Shown here in pieces: positions 1,726 through 22,259 of a stretch of 24,291 nt of DNA. The stretch is taken from contig NW_003112965.1 in the NCBI RefSeq assembly GCF_000003605.2, forward strand, positions 4,186 to 28,476, in the 5' to 3' direction. A model generated the notes under the pieces. That model saw only the letters and a program-made list of their open reading frames with translations, was not told the DNA's origin and ran no database searches. Made by a program: the position numbers and the translations under genes. Numbering within the stretch: the stretch's first letter is position 1; the number at the start of each line of letters is the position of its first letter. The DNA is from Saccoglossus kowalevskii (lineage: Eukaryota > Hemichordata > Enteropneusta > Harrimaniidae).

Positions 1726-4700
1726 GTGTGTGTGTTATGAAAAAATATAAATACTAATAGTTGGTGTATTGCTTTATATTAACGTGCTGCTTTTGAATAA
1801 TAAGGTTTACGGTTTGATAACACAATGCAAATACATTAATATTCCATATGTTCATTAGCGAGCCGAGATACGAGATACTGTAAAGGGGGTAATTATTCAC
1901 TGGGTTTTAATTTAGCTTATTTCGCTGACTGAAAAATGCGCTAAATTAAAACCCAGTGAATATGTAAAATTTAGCATAGAACACATTATCTAAATCACGA
2001 AACCGTGAATTTAAAACCCACTGAATATGCCTGAAATGGAAAATCAGTGAAATTTAAACCCAGTGAAAATTAGTCATTTTACAGTACCTAATTACTGTTC
2101 CTCTGGTTACACTCTCTCCATCGAATTAGACAGATGTTGTCAGAACGATTCAGCCCTGGTCGCTTATGGCCCTGATAAATAAAAGACATTACGGCCCTTG
2201 TTGTACGTTTAAGATATGAACACATATAAAATTTATACCAGAGTCGTAACACCCAACCTGTTAGGGGCCGTAACATCCAAACCAGGGTCGTAACTTTTTT
2301 TTTTAACCAGAGCCAATAAGGACTAGGGCTGGAACGTCTAGAAATTAGATAAATGCTGGAAAGACTTTCCTTTGAACCCCCTGCCCTAATTCTAACTCTA
2401 TCCCTATCTTCCATTGCCCACAAATTATTTGTATATGCCTCGCTTGAGATATTCTTGAGAACACCTGCATGTACATCTAGAGGGGTTTATACAATTGAAT
2501 CAAGGGTTTGAGTTAGGGTAAGTGAAGGGGGGTACAATGAATAGTCTTACCATAAATTGGTGGAGCAGAGAAGTGTGGTATAACAAAAGGATGTTGCAGG
2601 TATAACACAGAGATGCTACAGGGTTAATGCAGGAATGGTACAGGTATAACACAGGTATGGTGTAGGCATAACTCATAAATGCTGTAGGCTAACACAGGGT
2701 GCTGCAGGAATAACACGGGTGCTGTAGGCATAACACAGGTATGCTGAAAGCATAACACAGGAATGCTACAGGGTTAACACAGGCATGGTACAGGTATAAG
2801 ACAAGGATGGTGCAGGCCTAAATCTGGAATGCTATAGGCGTAACACAGATGCTGCAAGCATAACAGGGATGCTGCAGATAAAACAGGAATGCTGCAGGCA
2901 TAACACAGCAATGCTGCAGACATAACACAGGAATGCTATAGGCATATTACAGGAATGCCACTGGTATAACACAGGGATGCTACAGGCATAACACAGGAAT
3001 GCCGCTGGTATAACACAGGGATGCTGCAGATAAAACATGGGAATGCTGCAGGCATAACACAGAAATACTGCAGGCATAACACAGATAAACTGCAGGCATA
3101 ACACAGGAATGCCACTGGTATGACACAAGGATGCTGCAGGCATAACACAGGAATGCCACTGGTATAACACAGGGATGCTGCAGGCATAACACAGATGCTG
3201 CAGGGATGCTGCAGGCTTAACACAGGAATGTTGTAGGCCTAACACAGGGATGCTGCAGGCATAACACAGGAATGCTGCAGGCATAACACAGGAATGCTGT
3301 AGGCATAACACAGGGATGCTGCAGGTATAACACGGATGCTACAGCATTACACAGAGATGATGCAGGCATAGCAAAAGAATGCTTCATGTATAACACATGG
3401 ATGCTACAGGCATAGCAGGGATGCTACAGGCATAACACAGGAATGCAGCTGGTATAACACGGATGCTGCAGGTATAACATGGATGCTACAGGCATAACAG
3501 GGATGCTACAAGCATAACACAGGAATGCAGCTGGTATACCACAGGAATGCTGTAGGCTAACATAGGGTGCTGCAGGCATAACACAGGTATGCTGAAGGCA
3601 TAACACAGGAATGCTACAGGGTTAACAGAGGCATGGTACAAGTATAAGACAAGGATGGTGCAGGCCTAAAACTGGAATGCTGCAGGCATAACACAGCAAT
3701 GCCACTGGTATAACACAGGGATGCTGCAGGCATAACAGGGATGCTGCAGCAATGCCGCTGGTATGACACAGGCATGCCGCATGCATAACACAGCAATGCT
3801 GCAGGCATAACACAGAAATACTGCAGGCATAACACAGGAATGCCACTGGTATAACACAGGGATGCTAAGGCATAACACAGGAATGCAGCTGGTATAACAC
3901 AGGAATGCTGTAGGCATAACACAGGGATGCTGTGGGCATAACACAGGGATGCCGCTGATATAACACAGGAATGCTGTAGGCCTAACACAGGGATGCTGCA
4001 GGCATAACACAGGAATGCTGTAGGCATAACACAGGTATTCTGTAGGCATAACACAGGAATGCTGCAGGAAAAACACAGGAATGCTGATGGTATAACATAG
4101 GAATGCTGCAGGCATAACACCAGAATGCTGTGGGCTTAACACATGGATGATGCAGGTATAACACGGATGCTACAGGCATAACACAGAGATGCTGCAGATA
4201 GAACATAGGAATGCTGCAAGCAAAACACAGGATTGCTGCAGGTATAACACAGGAATGCTGCTGGTTTAACAGGAATGCTGAGGGCATAATACAGGTGTGC
4301 AACAGGCATAACACAGAATTGCTGCGAGATAACACAGGAATGCTGTTGGCATAACAGGGATGCTACAGGCATAACACCAGAATGCTGCTGGTTTAACAGG
4401 AATGCTGTAGGCATAACATAGGAATGCTGCAGGCATAACATAGGAATGCTGCAGGCATAACATAGGAATGCTGCAGGTATAACACGGATGCTACAGCATT
4501 ACACAGAGATGATGCAGGCATAACAAAAGAATGCTGCATGTATAACACATGGATGCTACAGGCATAGCAGGGATGCTACAGGCATAACACAGGAATGCAG
4601 CTGGTATAACACAGGGATGCTGCAGGTATAACATGGATGCTACAGGCATAACAGGGATGCTACAAGCATAACACAGGAATGCAGCTGGTATACCACAGGA

Positions 4701-7700
4701 ATGCTGTAGGCTAACATAGGGTGCTGCAGGCATAACACAGGTATGCTGAAGGCATAACACAGGAATGCTACAGGGTTAACAGAGGCATGGTACAAGTATA
4801 AGACAAGGATGGTGCAGGCCTAAAACTGGAATGCTGCAGGCATAACACAGCAATGCCACTGGTATAACACAGGGATGCTGCAGGCATAACAGGGATGCTG
4901 CAGCAATGCCGCTGGTATGACACAGGCATGCCGCATGCATAACACAGCAATGCTGCAGGCATAACACAGAAATACTGCAGGCATAACACAGGAATGCCAC
5001 TGGTATAACACAGGGATGCTACAGGCATAACACAGGAATGCAGCTGGTATAACACAGGAATGCTGTAGGCATAACACAGGGATGCTGTGGGCATAACACA
5101 GGGATGCCGCTGGTATAACACAGGAATGCTGTAGGCCTAACACAGGGATGCTGCAGGCATAACACAGGAATGCTGTAGGCATAACACAGGTATTCTGCAG
5201 GCATAACACAGGAATGCTGCAGGAAAAACACAGGAATGCTGCTGGTATAACATAGGAATGCTGCAGGCATAACACCAGAATGCTGCTGGTTTAACAGGAA
5301 TGCTGTGGGCTTAACACATGGATGATGCAGGTATAACACGGATGCTACAGGCATAACACAGAGATGCTGCAGATAGAACATAGGAATGCTGCAAGCAAAA
5401 CACAGGATTGCTGCAGGTATAACACAGGAATGCTGCTGGTTTAACAGGAATGCTGAGGGCATAATACAGGTGTGCAACAGGCATAACACAGAATTGCTGC
5501 GAGATAACACAGGAATGCTGTTGGCATAACAGGGATGCTACAGGCATAACACCAGAATGCTGCTGGTTTAACAGGAATGCTGTAGGCATAACATAGGAAT
5601 GCTGCAGGCATAACATAGGAATGCTGCAGGCATAACATAGGAATGCTGCAGGCATAACATAGGAATGCTGCAGGCATAACATAGGAATGCTGCAGGCATA
5701 ACATAGGAATGCTGCAGGCATAACATAGGAATGCTGCAGGCTTAACATAGGAATGCTGCAGGCATAACACAGGAATGCTGCAGGCATAACATAGGAATGC
5801 TGCAGGCATAACATAGGAATGCTACAGGCATAACATAGGAATGCTGCAGGCATAACACAGGAATGCTGCAGGCATAACATAGGAATGCTGCAGGCATAAC
5901 ATGGGGATGCTGCAGGCATAACACGGGGATGCTGCAGGCATAACATAGGAATGCTGCAGGCATAACATAGGAATGCTGCAGGCATAACACGGGGATGCTG
6001 CAAGTCTAACTTTCCTACAAATGTTCGGGTAATTTTTGAATTAGTCTTAAACTTGTTCACTTATTCTTTCAAAATCAATATGGGCTCCCCTTTGTAGCAC
6101 CTATCAGAATACAGGGATTTATATTTTTACCTCAGTGTATTTAAACATTGCGACATATGCACATCCATTTATTTCAAGATGATCGAATGTAGACTATTTT
6201 GGAATAAAGAATCATCAATATCAAGCATTTCTGCCATTCCGGAACCTGCTTTTAGATATGTATTGGCAGATTTCATTAAAACTTGGTACATACATTGGAC
6301 ATTATGGGGCCTTGATGCATGTCATTTTGTTTTTGCAGAGCAGATTTAAAATGGCCGACTGGTGGCTATTTTGTTTTAATATCATTTCACACATGTGCGT
6401 ATTTATTCATTGTGTTATCAGATTCAAGATGGCTGAATTGTGGTTGTTTTAATGTCATGCATTTTGTTGCTTTTTGTTCACACTTAGTATGTACATTGAA
6501 CTTTATAAGACCTTAATGCATAATCTCAAAATGACCGACTGATGACCATTTTGTTTTACTGAATTATCTGACTGTTCATGTTCAAACTTTATATTTCTTA
6601 GACTTTCAGAAACTATGTAATGGCAATTACTTGTTATTTGTGTGTTGTTGAAACCTACATGTATCAGGGGTTTAAGAGCTGGCCGTATGTTCGGCTACAA
6701 ACCAAAATTTGCCGTCTACTTTCTCCCTTTGTCTGCCTATGTTGGCCTCGCTCCAGCGCTTCGCTTCGCTATTTTTGTTTTGGCCTGTTGTTACAGGATG
6801 ATGGCCTGCTATTTAATTTATTTGTGAAACCCTTATGTATTGTGCAAAAATCGTGAAATATTAAGTATCAGAAATTCGTAGCAAAGTATATTTTGTTCTT
6901 CGATCTAGCTCAATTTTATTGTGGTATGTTCAGAAACTCAGATTCTGATAATCATTTTTTTTATAGTCGTGACAAATGTCATTTGCCCTCTTAGTGGTCT
7001 GGTTAAAAATAACAAACGTTGTCAGCTGAGACCGATTTCACAAAACAATGGATCATCAGTGATTGTAGTCAGCTGTTACCCTTCAGTATAGATCATGGCA
7101 TTGTCATAACTTAGTTTTCAATTAAGCATTCATTAGGTTAAATTGTGTTCATTGTTGTTTGTGATTTATTTCAGGTGCTGATACTGGTCATAGAGTTCCT
7201 GAGGTATGAACTTAAACTCATTAATTCTAGTAATACACATTCATTGCATGCTACTAGTGGACTGTACATTAAACATCACAGTCCCACAGTGTTGACTTAA
7301 CATTGTATTTATTGATTTTCATTATTAATTAATTTACTCTTTGTTCTGTCACAGATTTAAAAAACAGAGTTCCATATTTATTCAATTGCATTTGGTTTAC
7401 AATATCTATTTCACTCCTTCTCGTTGAACATGTTGCAAGCTGGTAATAAATTTAAATTAAATCTTCGTTAAATTTTATTCTTTTTACTGCTGGTTTTACA
7501 CCATACCAACACATGGTTCACCCTAACTACAATATTTAATTAGCTCATTAGTTTAGCTGCATCTGTGGTATTACCTGTTTTACATCCATGATGAAAGTAA
7601 CACCCATAATCAGCTAAAAACCCAAGTGCCGAAATACTACAATGCAGGACTTTTCTACTGTGCTGTTACCTTTTTAACATGGGTCTATTTGCTATAAAGC

Positions 7701-10700: not shown

Positions 10701-13700
10701 AAAATCAAGCATTCCTTCCATTCCAAAACCAGACTAGTTTTGTTCAAACTCGGTACAAACATCAGACATTGTGGGACTTTTATACAAATCATTTCGTGTT
10801 TTAGATCAGAATCAAAATGGATGACAGGTGGCCATTTTGTTTAAACAAATGCAGTTTGAGAGGTATGTGTCTGACATGCCTTAAAGTGCGACTCTGCAAT
10901 CCCAGGGATTGCACCAGTGCATAATGGGAAATGTAATTTGTATGGTCTGCCCAGTTGTTTATTTGGTACATAGCTGTTATCATTTCAACCGAAGGTGTTA
11001 ATTCCGTAAGCTAACATCATGCATTACTCTATTATCCAATTTGAAAAGACTTATTGAATCGTGTTCAATGCTCATGGGTCCCCCACAATCTTTTTAAAGC
11101 AGTTTTCTTACTTAAATCATAGAGCTTCTTATTTAGTTCCGTGCTTGCAATGGATAGCATAGTACAACATTTTCCATAATGCGTCTTGTTCGCTAGGCAA
11201 TAATGGCGTTATGCAATGTGGAAAAAAGGCTCCAACAAATTAAAAAAAACAAAAAAAACTTTGCGATATGGCTGTGTGGCACGGGCATACCCAGTTGCCC
11301 AATGCCAAATATACACAAATATGTGTGTGACACATACGTTACAAAACATGGACACGTATACCTTTTTTTACGCAATGCTGTTGGTCAACAATCATTTCAT
11401 TGCGGGGATACATGTCATAGATTAAATTCAAGAAGCATTCGCATATTCAAAGCATATTGTTGAGGAATGATTTGTTGACGCTCCCCTCGAATGAACCCCG
11501 CTATTATCATGACCAGCCAGGCCCGTCACATTCGCCAATAAACTAATCTAGGGCAGTACCCACAGCTTTGTTCGTCTTGTCATCGACAATAGGGTGAAAA
11601 CCATCTTTTTTCCTTCTAGTAACTGTTTCCACTGGAAAAATAAGAATCGATCAAGTTTACAACCTCTGTAACCACGAACGTCTTTTTTTGCGCACATACA
11701 CTAAGGAAGTTAGTCCCTCCCCTTTCGTGCACACCTCAGCTCGTGCCATCCGCACTCACTTGGGACGGACTACTTTGTGGAGTGCCGACGAGTCACAACG
11801 CCCCTGAAGTGACCGGACAAACAGCTCATAGCATATCATTTCAATGTAATTATATAAACATACCTAGAGATAAAACAAAAAACTCAGGATTAACACATTG
11901 CATTTGCATAAACAGTCAAAACGACTGTCTGAATCATGCTTTCCTGTAGCTTTTACATGAAAATCACTCGGACATTGCTCTGAACTTGTAAATTAACATC
12001 AAAATTGTATCGCAGATATATTCATGTTTGTGTACGACATGAAAATAAAGCACCACAGGCGGTAATATTGCCGAAAAGAGTGATTTTGTGGAGCACCCTG
12101 AAGCGATGTTTCACGTTTGAGTGTCATTTATTTCTTAAACTTGATAACTCACTGGAACTACATGTACGTACCAGGGGTAATGCTGTTACTTGTTTTTATT
12201 GAAATGATATGATTTTTCAGGTCATGGAGCTGATCCCAATGTGAGAGATGAAAACAACAAAACACCTCTACATGATACTTTAATAAACTGCAATGACCTG
12301 TCCTTGGCCGAAGTGTTATCTGATAATGGAGCTGATGTTAATGCCAAGGACTGCTTTGGTAATACTCCATTGCTATCTGTATGTACCTCATTTCCACATG
12401 GTATGAATAGCATTGAAAATCCTTACCAAGAAGTTCATAGTCTTGAAAGCAAAGATCATGCTATACCATTTCTGTTGTCAAGACCACAAATACAGGTATG
12501 TTATATACTACATCATTAGGAAACATATGGTGCTTGAATTCATCAATTGTTATGGTAACACTCTAACCTGTGCATTATGGATTTGGCACCTTGACTACTG
12601 TGTAACAATAGCAAATGTTAATCACCTCTGTTGTATTCAGTTTAACGCATAGTGATCTCCAATATCATAGAGTTAGGAGGGGAGGGAGCTGTTCTATAAC
12701 GCTCTACTGGGGAGAACCCTACCTCTACCCTTTGATTCTGGAATTGACTTCTGACCTGTCAACCATTAGAGAATTGACTCTACCTGCACCAGAACTGACC
12801 TCAGATCATTGATGGCTCCCACACCTACCATATAATCTCCGAAATAGGCGTAATTTTTTGAACATTTCAATCTTTCCTGACACCTATTCAAGAATATGAT
12901 GTTTATTGTGGCGAAACGTGAATGGGTAAAACTTCGTTTCGACAATGAGCTTTTATCACCGTAAAATTATGGGGGATATCTTATTGCGTCAAGCATTTAC
13001 ATGTGACCGAAATCATTTGTTTACATTGAAACTAAGTTGATTGATGGCTCCCACATCTATCACCTCTAGAATTGACCTCTGACCTGTCAGCCATTAGAGA
13101 ATTGACTCTACCTGCACAAGAATTGACCTCAGATCATTGATGGCTCTCACACTTATCTCCTCTAGAATTGACCTCTGATCTATCAATCATGATGGACTTT
13201 TCATTTTCTGAACTTGGTGACAAGTGTACTATTTTTGTTTGCATTATAACTTAATGTGCCTTAGTGATTGGTCAATGTGAACTAACCCTTCCTATAACTG
13301 TATCTATTAATATCTTTCAGATAAATGCTCAAAATAAACAAGATAGAACAGCACTGTTTGAATGCATGTCAAGGGGGGATACTAGAAACGTGTTACGACT
13401 ACTTGAATGCAGGGCTGATCCGGATATATTTGGTTGGGTTAATGATTTATCTGAGCATGGCAGGTAATCTTGTGATTGCAGCTTGACTAATTGGAAACTA
13501 ATATAGAATAACATTAACAATGTTTGCATGAATTGTGCTGCATTTTGTATATTGCTGCTAAATGTAGTTACCTGTAATAATAAAATATTTTTTTCCTGTC
13601 TGTCATTATCAACGCTTTTTAGTGGCCTGGATAAGTTAATTAAATGTTGTTCAAAACTGTTTATGTAATGAATGCATGTATACAGTGCAGTTTTGGTGTC

Positions 13701-15207
13701 ACTGGCCTATATATTTTTGGAGATATTCGTGATATTTATAATAATTGTGGCCAAAATATTGCCTTCCACTTTTCTGACAATGTCCAGTGAAATTTATAAT
13801 AATTGTGGCCAAAATATTGCCTTTCTCCATTCAGACAATGTCCTGTAAAATTTATAATAATTGTGGCCGAAATATTGCCTTCACTATTCTGACAATGTCC
13901 AGTGACATTTATAATAATTGTGGCCAAAATATTGCCTTTCACCATTCAGACAATGTCCTGTAAAATTTATAATAATTGTGGCCAAAATATTGCCTTCACT
14001 ATTCTGACAATGTCCAGTGACATTTATAATAATTGCAGCCAAAATATTGTCTTCACTATTCTGACAATGTGCAGTGACATTTATAATAATTGCAGCCAAA
14101 ATATTGCCTTCACTATTCTGACAATGTCCAGTAAAATTTATAATAATTGTGGCCGAAATATTGCCTTTGTGTCCAGTGAAAACTTTTAGAGAGATGATTT
14201 GCTTTGTGCCCTTGATACATCAATGTGCTTTAAATGTTTCTATTTATTTTATAGGCATGTATCACCATTGTTTGTGTCTCTGATGTCATCTAGAGTTGTT
14301 TGTTCTACTACTCCAATGATGTCTAATAATTATCAATTTATTGCTCACCTTGTTGACAGAGGTAAACATGTGTTAAGTTTTATTTTCAAATTTTCATGTA
14401 CTGGATACAGCTTTTATGGTCCATTATTGTTCAGCAGAATTGCCAAAATGCAGATCTGATTTTGACTACATTGTAACTGTATTTCTAATGTTAGTTAGTA
14501 GGTAATGCTACTGATGTTGTACTACACTGAATACCACAACATAACACCAATATCATGTCAAGATAAAACAAGTTCCTTACACATTTCAGTAACAATAATG
14601 CTAAGTACCAAAAAAATAGGCGCTAGAACCAGTTCAAAAGCACTTGCGTTAATCCAAAAATGGAATACATTTGTTCAAATATGGTAAAACAGATATAAGT
14701 TATATTGCAATATTGGTAACTATTACGTTTTTTTCAGGGTATTTCAGCACTGCTAAGACGTACAATGAATTACTGGACTACATTGCAGAGTTTCCTGGCT
14801 GCAGCCATCTTGGGAAAATTGGACCAAGACTGATCCATTTGTTGTTTGGTGGTACAACCACCTCTTTACTCCAGTTATGCACCAGGAAGTTATTCCAGAC
14901 GTGTTACATGAGGAGTACTGACACGTTGAATAGTAAATTGTTCCCAAATTCTGATGAATTAAATCTGGAATGTTATGATCACTATGGTGATTATTATGAA
15001 AGCTATTTACTTGGAATTCTGAATAGAAGTCAGTTTGAATTCCTGATCGATATTTTACATCTACCAAAAAATGCTATCCTCAATTTTGAAATTGAGCTTC
15101 TACGACAGAGACTATTGAGTAAATTTTTTCAACATGATTGGTTTGATGAGAGAAGTATTGGTTCCCATAGCGACAGTGAAAATGAGTCTGATGGTGAATA
15201 CTGGTAA
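1470..15207 (+). CDS. Seven-exon ankyrin-repeat protein with divergent SOCS box (ASB-like), 494 aa
   Basis: The coding exons are 1470-1725, 7175-7203, 9924-10128, 12221-12495, 13321-13463, 14255-14361 and 14738-15207. Every junction is GT-AG and the phases match throughout (1485 nt, 494 residues). Visible ankyrin signatures are RTPLF (55-59) with LLAEKGAD (81-88), SPLQL (107-111), HGADPNV then TPLH (165-181), NGADVNAKDCFGNTPL (199-214) and DRTALFE with RADPD (263-290). In the last exon, S381-L382-xxx-C386-xxx-L390 fits the elongin-BC-box pattern, and LPKN (447-450) could be a weak Cul5-box LP motif. In known families, ankyrin plus C-terminal SOCS box defines ASB proteins, cytosolic substrate receptors of elongin-BC/cullin-5 ubiquitin ligases. 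The tail (475-494) is acidic and Ser-rich. The spacing between the two SOCS halves is unusually long, so a plain ankyrin protein remains possible. The gene structure is very likely; the ASB identity is moderately likely. Confidence 0.85.
1876..2086. mobile_element. MITE-like element with TA target duplication and internal hairpin
   Basis: The boundaries read TA-CTGTAAA (1876-1884) and TTTACAG-TA (2078-2086), giving 7-bp inverted termini flanked by TA on both sides, the target duplication of Tc1/mariner-type elements. Inside, 1894-1916 and 1940-1962 are perfect 23-bp inverted arms around a 23-nt loop. The motif AAACCCAGTGAA recurs near 1949, 2014 (as AAACCCACTGAA) and 2056. There is no coding capacity. 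It lies in intron 1. Confidence 0.65.
2087..2580. repeat. Degenerate simple-sequence stretch in intron 1
   Basis: Short imperfect repeats of the type GGGCCGTAACATCCAAACC recur between about 2150 and 2310. CCCTAATTCTAACTCTATCCCT (2391-2412) resembles decayed CCCTAA telomere-type repeat, and GAGTTAGGGTAAG (2511-2523) shows the same motif in the opposite direction. No gene is seen; the open minus-strand frame here has no recognisable content. Confidence 0.35.
3331..5657. repeat. Higher-order tandem duplication inside the 22-bp array
   Basis: The block 3331-4482 is repeated next to itself at 4483-5657. Landmarks set the offset: CACGGATGCTACAGCATTAC at 3331 and 4483 (1152), GTTAACAGAGGCATGGTACA at 3621 and 4775 (1154), and GGGCTTAACACATGGATGAT about 1175 apart after one extra 22-bp unit. 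Rare variants are shared in order, so this is block duplication rather than convergence. A third, more diverged relative with the GGGTTAACACAGGCATGG landmark lies near 2770. Confidence 0.9.
5570..6005. repeat. Homogeneous sub-array of the 22-bp unit
   Basis: About 19-20 successive units differ from one another by very few bases, mostly CATA versus CACA and rare GGGG. The earlier array is heavily diverged by contrast. This indicates recent expansion or local homogenisation at the 3' edge of the array. Confidence 0.85.
6010..7174. other. Remainder of intron 1, no gene
   Basis: It contains the first copy of a dispersed repeat (6150-6560). Near 6660-6800 there is a GC-richer fragment with GCTCCAGCGCTTCGCTTCGC, which looks like old transposon sequence. 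No domain is recognised in the short open frames here. Confidence 0.4.
6150..6560 (+). repeat. Dispersed repeat, copy A (with partial second unit)
   Basis: The order of blocks (TCAAGCATTTCTGCCATTCC, then AACTTGGTACATACATTGGA, then a CATTTTGTTTT tract, then AAAATGGCCGACTGGTGGC) matches copy B at 10660-10850 with many point changes. A truncated second unit follows at 6490-6560 (AAAATGACCGACTGATGACC). There is no coding content. Start and end are approximate. Confidence 0.7.
7175..7203 (+). CDS. ASB-like gene, coding exon 2 (29-nt microexon)
   Basis: A 29-nt exon lies between a TTTATTTCAG acceptor and a GTATGA donor. It completes Gly86 and adds ADTGHRVPE (87-95). It turns the end of exon 1 into LLAEKGAD, a typical ankyrin turn, which is the main reason to believe it. 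The phase is 1 in and 0 out. It is far too short to appear as an ORF. Without it, exon 1 (phase 1 end) cannot join exon 3 (phase 0 start) in frame. Confidence 0.8.
7204..9089. other. Left part of intron 2, no gene recognised
   Basis: AT-rich sequence with a GC-richer patch at 8790-8950 and another near 8190-8240 (GACCGGCACTCCCATTGCGC). The minus-strand frame at 8791-8994 has no recognisable domain. Nothing further could be supported. Confidence 0.4.
9090..9560 (-). repeat. Inverted cluster of the 115-195-bp repeat, about 3 units
   Basis: Read on the minus strand, it repeats the order ATGCAAAT, TAGGT-type AT stretch, ACCAATAAGGTTTGTGCATT, ACATCTATGTACCATGTTT, TATTGAAATGTAATGATCAG. That is the same order as the units at 18990-20387 on the plus strand. 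The perfect octamer ATTTGCAT occurs at 9232-9239, 9366-9373 and 9508-9515. It lacks the CATA tail seen at the downstream cluster. Confidence 0.75.
9924..10128 (+). CDS. ASB-like gene, coding exon 3
   Basis: The acceptor is CTTGATTGCAG and the donor is G|GTGAGT. It encodes residues 96-163 plus one base of Gly164. The peptide GCSPLQLMVEFFNN resembles an ankyrin helix. VINEIVHLAWVFLG runs directly into the HGADPNV turn of the next exon, so the ankyrin unit is split by an intron at the Gly. The middle (KKRNNEGSDAIFG) looks like an insert between helices. Confidence 0.88.
10660..10850 (+). repeat. Dispersed repeat, copy B
   Basis: It is collinear with copy A at 6150-6380: ATCAAGCATTCCTTCCATTC, AAACTCGGTACAAACATC, then ATCAAAATGGATGACAGGTG followed by GCCATTTTGTTT. 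It lies in intron 3 in the same orientation. It is diverged and has no open frame of note. Confidence 0.7.
10851..12220. other. Remainder of intron 3, no gene recognised
   Basis: Mostly AT-rich, with a GC-richer patch at about 11700-11815. Several open frames under 90 codons exist on both strands, but none shows a domain, codon bias or splice logic. A hidden regulatory element in the GC-richer patch is possible; no motif cluster was convincing. Confidence 0.35.
12221..12495 (+). CDS. ASB-like gene, coding exon 4 (core ankyrin repeats)
   Basis: The acceptor is GATTTTTCAG and the donor is GTATGT. It encodes residues 164-255. This is the clearest ankyrin segment: HGADPNVRDENNKTPLHD followed by a second unit NGADVNAKDCFGNTPL, at a spacing of about 34 residues. 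A longer, less conserved stretch (216-250, with HSLESKDHAIPFLL) follows and probably forms an expanded loop plus the next helix. Confidence 0.93.
12730..13200. repeat. Local duplication with 30-bp sub-repeats in intron 4
   Basis: The block GAATTGACTTCTGACCTGTC (12741) to GATCATTGATGGCTC (about 12818) recurs at 13069-13146 with an offset of 328 bp. Inside each copy, GAATTGAC followed by a CTCTGACCTG-type or CTACCTG-type segment repeats about every 30 bp. The 240 bp between the copies looks unrelated. Confidence 0.8.
13321..13463 (+). CDS. ASB-like gene, coding exon 5
   Basis: The acceptor is TATCTTTCAG and the donor is AG|GTAATC. It encodes residues 256-302 plus two bases of Arg303. The unit INAQNKQDRTALFECM...VLRLLECRADPDIFG is a recognisable ankyrin repeat, with TALFE in place of TPLHL. 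The phase (2 at the end) matches only the next exon. Confidence 0.92.
13735..14187. repeat. 57-58-bp minisatellite, 8 units, in intron 5
   Basis: TTTATAATAATTG starts at 13735, 13793, 13851, 13908, 13966, 14023, 14080 and 14137. Each is followed by a GGCC or CAGCC variant, AAAATATTGCCTT, and a GACAATGTCC block. Two sub-types partly alternate (CAATGTCCTGTAAAA versus CAATGTCCAGTGA). When the unit is 57 bp (19 codons) the plus frame at 13902-14189 stays open. This is an array effect, with no start or splice logic linking it to the gene. Confidence 0.92.
14255..14361 (+). CDS. ASB-like gene, coding exon 6
   Basis: The acceptor is TATTTTATAG and the donor is G|GTAAAC. It encodes Arg303 to Arg338 plus one base of Gly339. 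HVSPLFVSLM resembles the first helix of an ankyrin unit and QFIAHLVDRG the second helix and turn, separated by a Ser/Thr/Met-rich loop. The exon lies right after the 57-bp minisatellite of intron 5. Confidence 0.88.
14738..15207 (+). CDS. ASB-like gene, terminal coding exon 7 (SOCS-box-like region)
   Basis: The acceptor is GTTTTTTTCAG. The exon encodes Gly339 to Trp494 and ends in TAA. It contains ELLDYIAEFPG (349-359), then GPRLIHLLFGG, the BC-box match SLLQLCTRKL (381-390), an acidic and Tyr-rich insert of about 50 residues, and then FLIDILHLPKNAI (440-452). A normal SOCS box has its LPxP segment about 15-25 residues after the BC box. Here it is about 55 residues away and lacks the second Pro. 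The C-terminus SHSDSENESDGEYW is acidic, and the Ser residues lie in casein-kinase-2-like contexts. Confidence 0.92.
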
Positions 15208-18989: not shown

Positions 18990-20387
18990 AATTACTTGAA
19001 CTTGAGATATTGATGGAAAAAGCTTATGCAAATAGGGTAACTAATAGGAACAGATTTAAGTGTAAAACTAATAAGGTCTGCACAATGTAAAAGTAATAAG
19101 ATCTGCATAATATAATATCTATGTACAAAATTTCATTGAAATGTGATTAGAACCAACAAATTATTAATTATTATGGAGAATTAATATGAACAGATTTTAA
19201 CTCAAAATTAATCAGGCCTGTCTATTGTCCTAGAGCATTTATGTACCAAATTTTATTCAAATGTGATGATCAGAACTTGAGATACCAGTATTAATTAATT
19301 ATGTTAATTAGGTGATTAAGAAGCATAAATATTTACCAAAAACTAATATGGTGTATAGTCCTAGGTTCATTGAAATATGATGAGCACTCTTTAAACGTGT
19401 CATTAAAATCCAATGAGTGGTTCTTTAGACATCAGTGCAACAGCCATGGAACAGCAAATAATTAACTAATTATGCAAATTAGGTAATTAATACGCACAAT
19501 TATTTACCCCGAAATTATTCAGGTCTCAATTCCATAGTCCTAGAAGATCTATGTCGCAAGTCTCATCGGAATGTGATGATTAGTACTTGAGATATCAGGT
19601 GAAAAGCTAAAAATTAACTAATTATGCTAATAAGATGATTAATATGCACAAATATTTACCCCAAAAACTAATTAGGTCTCTGCACAGTCCTCAAGTAACT
19701 ATGTACTAGTACCAGGTTTCATTGAAATATGATCATTACTACTACTAATATCAAAAGCTGAAAATTAATTAATTTTGCAAATTAGGTAATTAATATGTAC
19801 TGATATTACCCTAAAAACTAACAGGTCTGTGAAGTATCATATGACATCTATGTACCAAGTTTTATTAAAATGTTCTGATTAGTACTTGAGATATCAGTGG
19901 AAAAGCCGAAAGTTGATTTATCATTATGCAAATTAGGTAATTAATATAAACAAATTTTTACCCAAAACTAATCAAATCTGTGCATTAGTTCAGAGCATCC
20001 ATGTGCCAAGTTTCATTGAAATCCAATGAGTGGTTCTTCAAAAATCAGTGGAACAGTCATGGAACAGCTTGAAATCAGTTAATTATCATTCAAATTAGGT
20101 AATTAATATTCATAGATTTTTACCCAAAACTAATCAAATCTGCACATTAGTTCAGAGCATCCATGTGCCAAGTTTCATCAAAATCCAATGAGTGGTTCTT
20201 CAAATATCAGTGGAACAGTCATGGAACAGCTTAAAATCAGTTAATTATCATGCAAATTAGGTAATTAAACAAATTTTTACCCAAAATCTAATCAACTCTG
20301 CACATTATCCCAGAGCATCTATGTGCCAAGTTTCATCGAAATTTGATTAGTGGTTTTTGAGATAACGGTGGAACAAAAAAAAGTGAC
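18990..20387 (+). repeat. Cluster of about 9 diverged 115-195-bp repeat units
   Basis: The landmark TTTCATTGAAAT (or close variants) recurs at about 19131, 19251, 19366, 19561, 19717, 19861, 20011, 20173 and 20331. Each is preceded by an ATCTATGTACCAAG-type block and a CAAATTAGGTAATTAAT block. The last two full units (20011 to 20173 to 20331) are the most alike, with periods of 162 and 158 bp. It is the same family as 9090-9560 in the opposite orientation. Perfect ATGCAAAT octamers lie at 19026, 19472, 19926 and 20250. Confidence 0.85.
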
Positions 20388-20556: not shown

Positions 20557-20562
20557 TTTATT
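20557..20562 (-). terminator. Poly(A) signal AATAAA for the microprotein gene
   Basis: On the minus strand TTTTAATAAAACTTGC lies 41 nt past the stop codon, giving a compact 3' UTR. An earlier AATAAA overlaps the tandem stop codons themselves and is less likely to be used. The inverted satellite cluster begins only about 75 bp further on. Confidence 0.55.
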
Positions 20563-20602
20563 AAAATGTATTATAATAACAACAACATACTTTTTTGGTT
20601 TA

Positions 20603-20676
20603 TTATTTCCGCGGACATTTACAGCGTTCATTTTCTGGTACATCTTTTAAAACTCTTGCAACATGATTACCACAAC
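20603..20676 (-). CDS. Microprotein gene, coding exon 2
   Basis: It lies after a pyrimidine-containing acceptor (ATTTCACTTTCACAG). It encodes Gly17 to Lys40: the GCGNH motif, a short helix-like VARVLKDVPENER, and the CKCPRK tail, then TAA with a second in-frame TAA directly after it. The intron between the two exons is 1370 bp (20677-22046). Confidence 0.85.
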
Positions 20677-22095
20677 CTGTGAAAGTGAAATTTGAACAAA
20701 ATGCATTATAAAATTGTGGGAATCATTATTCCATTGTTCAAAAGTGTAAATATAGCAGCCACTGGATAATGCACACAATGGCACTGACTTAGGCAATGCA
20801 CAGATAGGCAATGTTTTGGTTGATCGTGTATTTCATTTTTTTGTGTAGTTTTTCAATAAAACAATCATAGTAACATGCAACTGTGACACGATTTTCTAAG
20901 AACTGATTACCGGCAAGAAAAACCAAAAAATCAACATATTCAAACTAAAATATAAATAAATATTATATAAAATGTCATATAAAAAAAAAAATAATAATAA
21001 TAAAAAAAAAATTGGAGCCTCATCGGATTTTAATCAGATTGAGTAACATGCATGCTCACATGTTTATCTTTTACATCATCATAAATTGGTGTAAAGGGAC
21101 ACAAGAAACAGATGTAAATACAATACTAGTACAGTGTTCACACATGTAGCACAATGTGGGGTTTGACCTAGAAAAAACCCACATGTGAACAGATTGACCG
21201 GGTGTTGAACTGGGATAATTTAGCTATACGAGTCAGAAGACTGGCTTTGACTTCGAGTTCTGTTTTTAACTCAGCAATGAGACACGTATGAACAAGGTCT
21301 TGAGGCTATACAATTTTGTTTGCAGCAGTCAACTAGTAAGGTGCATAGAACAGGAATACATGTAGGTATGATCGCCGAGTTAAATATAAACCATTGTGAC
21401 GTACATTGATTTTAAATACCCCGATTATTCTTGACCCAAATCGATGCTCTGAGCTATGAACAATTGGCAAATTTGTTTTTCATGCCTGTTATCGTAAGGC
21501 ATTATTTCCAAATAGTCCAACCGGTAAGGAATATTGCTGCCTGTCAACACGACAAGAGAAACTATACAAAAAATGCGCGCACGCGCATAACTACCCATGT
21601 TGACCACGGTATTAAACTGGACTCTAACCTAACCGTGTTGTGTCAACTTAGCACTGATCGGCGGAACACCGGAAGTCAAAGTGGTGTTTGTTCAACCATG
21701 GATGTACTAAGAATACATGGATGGTTCAACTTTGAAAACATTTACCGGAAATTTTCCGACTATTTTTGCATTAATAAACGATAGATAACAGCCCAGAGCA
21801 TGTAAACATAGCATCATTTCAGTAAAATATGTAAGTATTTTGCCCGTATTTTGGTCCCAGACAGCCATTATTTGTATCACTCACTCCGATATGTTTAACC
21901 TTTCATTCACAAATATTCGGTTGAAAATTCTTTGCCCTCGATGTATATACAAAATGATGGTGGTCAGAGTTGCACAACTTCACTCTATTTATATACTAGT
22001 GGTTGTACTGTTTTTAATACAGCCAAGCCAAAAGATTCGAGCTTACCCTTCCACGTGAATTTCTTGCACTTGTCGCACACAACCTTGAAACACAT
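20603..22095 (-). CDS. Two-exon gene for a 40-aa Cys/His-rich TWxGCGxH microprotein
   Basis: The coding exons on the minus strand are 22095-22047 and 20676-20603 (123 nt, 40 residues plus TAA). The junction is AAGG|GTAAGC to TTTCACAG|GTTG and rebuilds Gly17. Key residues are C7-x2-C10, T14-W15, G17-C18-G19-x-H21 and C35-x-C37, a set suited to binding one zinc ion. From memory, short proteins with a CxxCxKxTWxGCGxH pattern and a CxC tail occur widely in fungi, plants and bacteria with no settled function. The family match was not searched. The ATG at 22095 is the first in its frame after the in-frame stop near 22183, and it has A at -3. A poly(A) signal lies 41 nt past the stop, and CRE/ETS motifs lie about 140-165 bp upstream of the ATG. 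The gene is too short to be found by ORF length. Confidence 0.85.
21576..21676. promoter_or_regulatory. NRF1 and ETS motif cluster, promoter-like patch
   Basis: CGCGCACGCGCA (21576-21587) matches the NRF1 consensus YGCGCAYGCGCR at every position. ACCGGAAGT (21668-21676) is a strong ETS site. The patch 21480-21740 is richer in CG than its flanks and lies inside the microprotein intron. An ATG in good context (CAACCATGG) follows at 21699 but opens only 28 codons. A plus-strand GTAAGT donor-like site lies at 21830-21835. It could be the promoter of an unseen plus-strand transcript. Confidence 0.4.
22047..22095 (-). CDS. Microprotein gene, coding exon 1
   Basis: It encodes residues 1-16 (starting MCFKVVCDKCKKFTWK) plus the first base of Gly17. 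The donor is GTAAGC. It holds the CxxC pair and the TW part of the signature. The 5' UTR continues upstream with no other in-frame ATG. Confidence 0.85.
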
Positions 22096-22234
22096 CTTGT
22101 TCGTCGGAATATATAGAGTCAGCACTAATGTGGGCTTGGATGTTTTCGACAACTGACCGGATCGTTTCCTCGGGAGAATATACTAGTACACGAGATATTC
22201 TCGTGTCCGTTAAGTCGTCCAAGCAAGCAACGTA

Positions 22235-22259
22235 CAGGAAGTGAAACCAGATGACGTCA
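22235..22259 (-). promoter_or_regulatory. ETS and CRE motifs, likely promoter of the microprotein gene
   Basis: CAGGAAGTG (22235-22243, ETS-like) and the palindrome TGACGTCA (22252-22259, full CRE/ATF site) lie about 140-165 bp upstream of the ATG at 22095. They sit in a patch richer in CG than its surroundings (about 22160-22320). A TATAAA-like string lies near 22311-22316. ETS plus CRE pairs are typical of broadly expressed promoters. Assignment to this gene rests on position. Confidence 0.5.

Follow-up and report, generated by a model that had tools for sequence, protein, structure and literature searches.

The locus raises the question whether two very short open stretches, separated by 1,370 nt in the genome of the hemichordate Saccoglossus kowalevskii, belong to one protein-coding gene, and which kind of chemistry its product could perform. 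They lie in a window of 24,291 nt, by which we mean the whole stretch of DNA analysed here (contig NW_003112965.1, positions 4,186 to 28,476). The first-pass annotation had joined them at a Gly codon into the gene of a zinc-finger-like microprotein, and its exon coordinates as well as the junction turned out to be exact when the sequence was read again. Proteins of 40 residues encoded by exons of 49 and 74 nt fall under the usual limits of gene finders.

A two-exon gene and its paralogues

The elements of the gene and two flanking motifs are the following.

22095-22047, minus strand: exon 1, 49 coding nt, MCFKVVCDKCKKFTWK plus base 1 of the Gly17 codon; ATG at 22095; E 7.4e-5 with the bacteria-only profile
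22046-20677, minus strand: intron of phase 1, GT-AG, 1,370 nt, GTAAG...TTTCACAG; position and phase common to the paralogues on contig C3770
20676-20603, minus strand: exon 2, 74 coding nt including TAA, remainder of Gly17 and then CGNHVARVLKDVPENERCKCPRK; E 1.1e-12 with the bacteria-only profile
22252-22259, no strand assigned: CRE-like palindrome TGACGTCA, putative promoter element about 157 nt upstream of the ATG, single copy in the window
20599-20604, minus strand: AATAAA that shares bases with the stop codon, candidate poly(A) signal; another AATAAA at 20557-20562

Joined at the Gly codon, the exons encode a cysteine-rich product of 40 residues, MCFKVVCDKCKKFTWKGCGNHVARVLKDVPENERCKCPRK. 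A profile was built exclusively from the 86 bacterial sequences supplied by the 80 top-ranking bacterial loci and run against the 1,536 stop-to-stop segments of both window strands. Exon 2 (E 1.1e-12) and exon 1 (E 7.4e-5) were the top two segments, both on the correct strand, and the third segment reached only E 0.4. The spliced product scored 64.0 bits over profile positions 1-38.

The same genome was searched for further copies (a 572-Mb assembly of 4,830 contigs, the matches being lower bounds), and 27.5 kb of contig C3770 were read. The genome contains at least four genes of the family, namely the window gene and three genes in tandem on the minus strand of that contig:

C3770 421448 to 420653, minus strand: paralogue A, exon 1 of 49 nt, same intron phase
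C3770 419063 to 417752, minus strand: paralogue B, exon 1 of 49 nt, same intron phase
C3770 416259 to 410982, minus strand: paralogue C, exon 1 of 49 nt; exons 5 kb apart and paired by order, phase and splice sites

In all four genes exon 1 comprises 49 nt and the intron splits the Gly17 codon between bases 1 and 2. Position 15, encoded by exon 1, is Tyr in paralogues A, B and C and Trp in the window copy, and paralogue C carries Ser instead of Cys at position 18. The paralogues end in CSVM (A and B) and CIVL (C), which fit CaaX prenylation boxes and from these four residues lead us to predict prenylation; a CaaX end is absent from the window copy.

That the bacteria-only profile singles out both exons and that paralogues share the intron bears out the gene and the splice junction proposed earlier, and from these sequence comparisons it is near certain that the two tiny exons form a real, conserved protein-coding gene. 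A chance pair of open stretches resembling the domain, or bacterial contamination, might be considered for exons as short as these, but it is hardly credible given the two profile E-values and the intron position that four genes, spread over two large contigs, have in common. The lack of a CaaX tail in the window copy could also point to a decayed or unexpressed pseudogene of the C3770 genes. This is very unlikely too, since frame and splice sites are intact, Trp15 is retained, and the window copy outscores paralogues A and B on the bacterial profile (64 bits versus 52.5 for each of the two).

Substitutions among the paralogues point in the same direction less strongly. Exon 1 of B and C is identical at 47 of 49 positions, both changes being synonymous, while the upstream flank agrees at 453 of 544 positions, the intron at 310 of 368 and the nearest 100 upstream bases at 91 (binomial p 0.007 against the upstream rate, p 0.17 against these 100 bases). 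The core of exon 2 agrees between A and B at 61 of 66 positions, the intron at 286 of 386 and the downstream flank at 214 of 249 (p 1.5e-4 against the intron, p 0.08 against the downstream rate). These rates suggest selection, with a signal that is weak against the nearest flanks and short of proof; a better case for the gene is made by its conservation to bacteria.

The gene had also been credited with promoter motifs and a poly(A) signal of its own. Among such motifs the CRE-like site alone is conspicuous, and weakly so: TGACGTCA occurs once in the window versus 0.14 expected, and 12 of 100 shuffles contain at least one copy. Seven occurrences of the TATA-like TATATATT are found in the window. 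The one at 22108-22115 was rejected as TATA box of this transcript, because it is situated too near to the ATG, 13-20 nt upstream of it. As the window contains 80 AATAAA hexamers on both strands, the motif at the stop codon has little value as poly(A) evidence.

The window contains several other features. A 162-bp tandem repeat (19759-20342) lies immediately downstream of the microprotein gene. A large minisatellite with a 22-bp unit in about 158 copies (three repeat rows summed) and strongly strand-asymmetric composition occupies 2580-6002, and a tandem array of about 7.6 copies of a 57-bp unit is found at 13729-14168. On the plus strand there are an ankyrin-repeat stretch (Pfam Ank, 12208-12519) and an open stretch of 184 residues without Pfam match (14653-15207), which perhaps belong to one ankyrin-type gene.

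Distribution and conserved residues of the family

The window product contains the Met-Cys start, C7xxC10, GC18GxH21, C35 and C37 at the fixed spacing of the family. The aromatic residue at position 15 (W15), the VP pair at 29-30 (V29, P30) and R34 are present as well. It ends in CKCPRK and has no amphipathic basic tail, which is frequent in the family without defining it.

C2, C7, C10, K12, W15, G17, C18, G19, H21 and C35 are invariant in the 86 bacterial sequences behind the profile. This invariance is partly biased because the search pattern fixed C10, K12, W15, G17 and C18; a looser pattern also gave 86 sequences. A second set of 41 members was obtained from 20 Actinomycetota stretches (21 of 22 places) and from 20 of 29 Myxococcota places, the nine unfetched ones including the weakest; L120 and L137 belong to both sets. 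All 41 keep C2, C7, C10, G17, C18, G19, H21 and C35. The regular expression used required these Cys, Gly and His residues, but no member was lost to it, since the 40 stretches (one with two places) yielded the expected 41. Position 15 is always aromatic in this set (W, Y or F), with Y or F in 15 of the 20 Myxococcota members. At positions 37-38 every sequence of both sets has either Cys37 (28 of the 86, 35 of the 41) or Gly-His (58 and 6, respectively). According to the first-pass annotation, the gene would stand or fall with the conservation of Cys, His and Trp. Every sequence of both sets (86 and 41) retains C2, C7, C10, C18, H21 and C35, whereas Trp15 is not strict.

A C-terminal amphipathic basic segment (e.g. 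GFFARLFGR) follows the core in 77 of the 86 bacterial members by a loose pattern and in 61 by a stricter one. Six of the fetched stretches (L035, L057, L068, L073, L077 and L081) carry two microprotein genes. The second copies in L057, L068, L073 and L081 have 4-5 residues after the core, that in L077 has ten and that in L035 a full tail. As some second bacterial copies nearly end at the core, tailed and tail-less forms exist in bacteria as they do in the animal.

Our peptide-pattern search of genome contigs matched at least 592 stretches, at least 563 of which encode a relative, and the best 80 were kept. Two phyla were sampled at the level of whole genomes, defined from a Corynebacterium genome (Actinomycetota, G005) and from a genome titled Myxococcales (G003). 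Relatives were present at E 0.001 in 19 of 198 Actinomycetota and in 25 of 95 Myxococcota. Both figures include the positive genome around which the sample was drawn, and three weak Myxococcota matches start only at position 7. These homology and profile searches, proposed as a check in the first-pass annotation, hence provided relatives in bacteria and three more copies in the same genome. The claim that the family spans eukaryotes and bacteria is supported for one eukaryote genome and for Actinomycetota and Myxococcota.

A third phylum, Acidobacteria, was rejected. The title of the metagenome-assembled genome concerned (L045) is probably wrong, because the genomes of its phylum (G002), apart from its own genome, belong to the Actinomycetota set, and it was counted there. 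Another such genome titled Acidobacteria (L035) perhaps carries the same mislabel. On plasmids, a consensus-like query found a match at E 1 or below in 84 of 72,556 records. All 60 plasmid matches listed come from actinobacterial genera, and 50 of them have no annotated gene at the match in the PLSDB table, which is incomplete; where the family is annotated in these rows, it is as 'hypothetical protein'. Among three loci matched on viral contigs, L092 lacks the signature and was set aside as a chance match. An unverified and unannotated phage record from human faeces (L095, MT835623.1:16139-22246) encodes a likely member with 66.7% identity to the consensus-like query.

Domain catalogues hardly cover these proteins. 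The window product has no match in Pfam and a single one, at noise level, in NCBIfam; TIGR00703 (E 0.11) and phrog_7026 (E 0.4) were dismissed as noise. Three bacterial members gave no Pfam match, and none of 64 aligned members matched Pfam, NCBIfam or PADLOC at E 0.01. Because of the tiny exons and the missing significant entries in these three collections, the presence of the family elsewhere is probably underrated. The family profile found no match among PDB sequences, for which reason eight PDB look-alikes near 'FTWxGCG', mostly Kunitz-type inhibitors (best E 0.052), were rejected. No paper on the family appeared among the literature matches listed.

Paralogues A and B resemble myxobacterial members more than those of the sampled Actinomycetota (mean matches of 37: 22.0 versus 18.7 for A, 21.2 versus 17.6 for B), and for the window copy the two means are nearly equal (19.1 versus 18.5). 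In a FastTree tree of 127 tips and 37 columns three animal sequences group together (support 0.87), leaving out paralogue C, and this group falls within a clade (0.80) of mixed composition, in which 16 of 24 tips are myxobacterial. The alignment is too short for the tree to settle between transfer and descent.

Gene neighbourhood and possible function

Neighbouring genes were searched by tblastn with neighbour proteins over the 80 best loci, the queries being drawn from the same loci; domain assignments of representative neighbours were confirmed. CsoR family proteins were found in 37 loci, metallo-beta-lactamase-rhodanese proteins of the persulfide dioxygenase type in 35 and CoA-disulfide-reductase-rhodanese proteins in 29, followed by rhodanese (18), thioredoxin (12) and heavy-metal P-type ATPase (6). 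At least one of the three core partners (CsoR, persulfide dioxygenase, CoA-disulfide reductase) is present in 50 of the 80 loci and in 41 of the 59 loci of 10 kb or more, while 28 of the 80 contain none of the tested partner genes. Within the 5-kb flanks, midpoints at no more than 2.5 kb compare with those beyond as 34:4, 26:5 and 32:5 (binomial p 1e-6, 3e-4 and 1e-5).

As the 80 loci had been ranked by similarity to an Arthrobacter sequence, the neighbourhood test was repeated on the sampled genomes. Core partners occur in 8 of 20 unselected Actinomycetota loci (12 have none), in 2 of 20 Myxococcota loci and in 1 of 20 control stretches, which were placed arbitrarily in twelve actinobacterial genomes and are unmatched for replicon type. 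Compared to these controls the core genes are enriched in Actinomycetota (Fisher p 0.02; CsoR alone 8 versus 0, p 0.003), and the 2 of 20 Myxococcota loci with sulfur genes are no more than in the controls (p 1.0). With TauE, DsrE and DUF302 added, the counts for all queries are 10, 5 and 2 of 20, respectively. The only cluster common to four myxobacterial loci looks like a sigma factor. Among twelve plasmid loci with NCBI annotation, eight carry at least one of MBL-fold hydrolase, rhodanese, TauE/SafE and DsrE, one more has a CsoR-type gene only, and three have none of these. The family gene is linked to persulfide genes in Actinomycetota, not universally, and not in Myxococcota. This sulfur context may not transfer to animals, because it is the myxobacterial members, unlinked to sulfur, that paralogues A and B resemble most.

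An AlphaFold model of one bacterial member (L025, alignment of 64 rows) is of moderate confidence in the core, its first 40 residues having block means of 77-84, and it comprises two strands and, following GCGxH, a short helix. Foldseek and VIA-align comparisons of this model to the PDB gave no fold match. Given the moderate model and the missing PDB match, the assignment of ligands rests on conservation. C7, C10, C35 and C37 (Gly37-His38 in many bacteria) would hold one zinc ion, as suggested by the last ligand swapping Cys for His. C2, C18 and H21, which are conserved to the same degree, may form a reactive thiol patch that could pick up, carry or sense sulfane sulfur (persulfide) or another thiol modification. 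It is the gene company that points to persulfide chemistry: persulfide dioxygenase-rhodanese, CoA-disulfide (persulfide) reductase-rhodanese, rhodanese, thioredoxin, TauE and a CsoR-family repressor would all be fitting partners in actinobacteria. A zinc-binding, thiol-rich microprotein for reactive-sulfur chemistry is the best reading of these sequences, although we give it somewhat less than an even chance. The family had been described as one of unknown function; the sulfane-sulfur clusters around many actinobacterial genes do suggest a role, and the function is still an inferred one.

The same CxxC...CxC or CxGH ligand pattern would also suit a small zinc ribbon adaptor that binds a protein, an RNA or a membrane complex and performs no sulfur chemistry, the actinobacterial sulfur clusters being one host of several. 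The amphipathic tails of most of the 86 bacterial members and the CaaX ends of the paralogues resemble tails for localisation or docking, and sulfur genes are not enriched in Myxococcota. Such an adaptor leaves the conserved extra thiols C2 and C18 unexplained, as well as the enrichment of persulfide genes in Actinomycetota, and we consider it possible but rather unlikely. One could also think of a metallothionein-like metal buffer or a copper, zinc or cadmium chaperone under CsoR-type repressors, since there are seven Cys and His within 38 residues and since 37 of the 80 loci have a CsoR-family neighbour and 6 a heavy-metal P-type ATPase. However, all 37 CsoR-type neighbours have two Cys and lack the copper-ligand His four residues before the second Cys, a layout which we take to be that of persulfide-sensing (CstR) and not of copper-sensing proteins. 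The ATPase is rare. The spacing hardly varies, and neither do the Gly, Pro and aromatic positions, as one expects of a folded domain; a buffer or chaperone is improbable.

Provided that the reactive-sulfur reading holds, paralogues A-C could act at membranes through C-terminal prenylation, and the window copy would be the soluble form. The Met-Cys start of the window product would fit the Cys N-degron substrates of ADO in animals, whose turnover depends on O2. Cys2 probably serves something else or older than an N-degron, because it is kept in all 86 bacterial sequences. It is a long shot that animals keep a bacterial-type persulfide carrier or sensor in soluble and prenylated forms, with an N-terminal Cys, the GCGxH thiol and a possible link of sulfide to oxygen via the Cys N-degron. 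If true, bacteria and animals would have a new kind of persulfide carrier or sensor in common. The linkage to persulfide genes gives an anonymous family a concrete, testable role, to which the CaaX tails of the paralogues add a testable claim on localisation.

Comparison with known systems

Bacterial members follow the pattern MCxxxxCxxCxKxxWxGCGxH...VPxxxRCxC/GH, and the window product is 45-50% identical to four of them, with seven Cys and His in common and no gap over positions 1-38. The bacterial genes have no intron, in contrast to the phase-1 intron of the animal genes. Most of the 86 bacterial members carry the amphipathic basic tail, whereas the animal proteins have no tail (window copy) or a CaaX box (paralogues). 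The plant microproteins of PANTHER PTHR34724 ('OS12G0596101 protein') presumably share the CxxC...GCGxH layout; a literature search with these two names found nothing. We know of no GCGxH or C2 signature in the C(P)xCG micro-proteins of Haloferax. These one-domain zinc-finger proteins are likewise very small and have paired CxxC-type motifs (PMC11241148, PMC10716476).

In Streptomyces coelicolor a circuit of ScCsoR, ScPDO, RHOD and TauE serves sulfane-sulfur homeostasis; the excerpt of the source at hand describes it as four genes and names no microprotein (PMC7533328). The partner gene types of this circuit, as given in the same excerpt (PMC7533328), also surround many actinobacterial members of the family. 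What is new here is the reactive-sulfur linkage in Actinomycetota together with the tandem, possibly prenylated paralogues.
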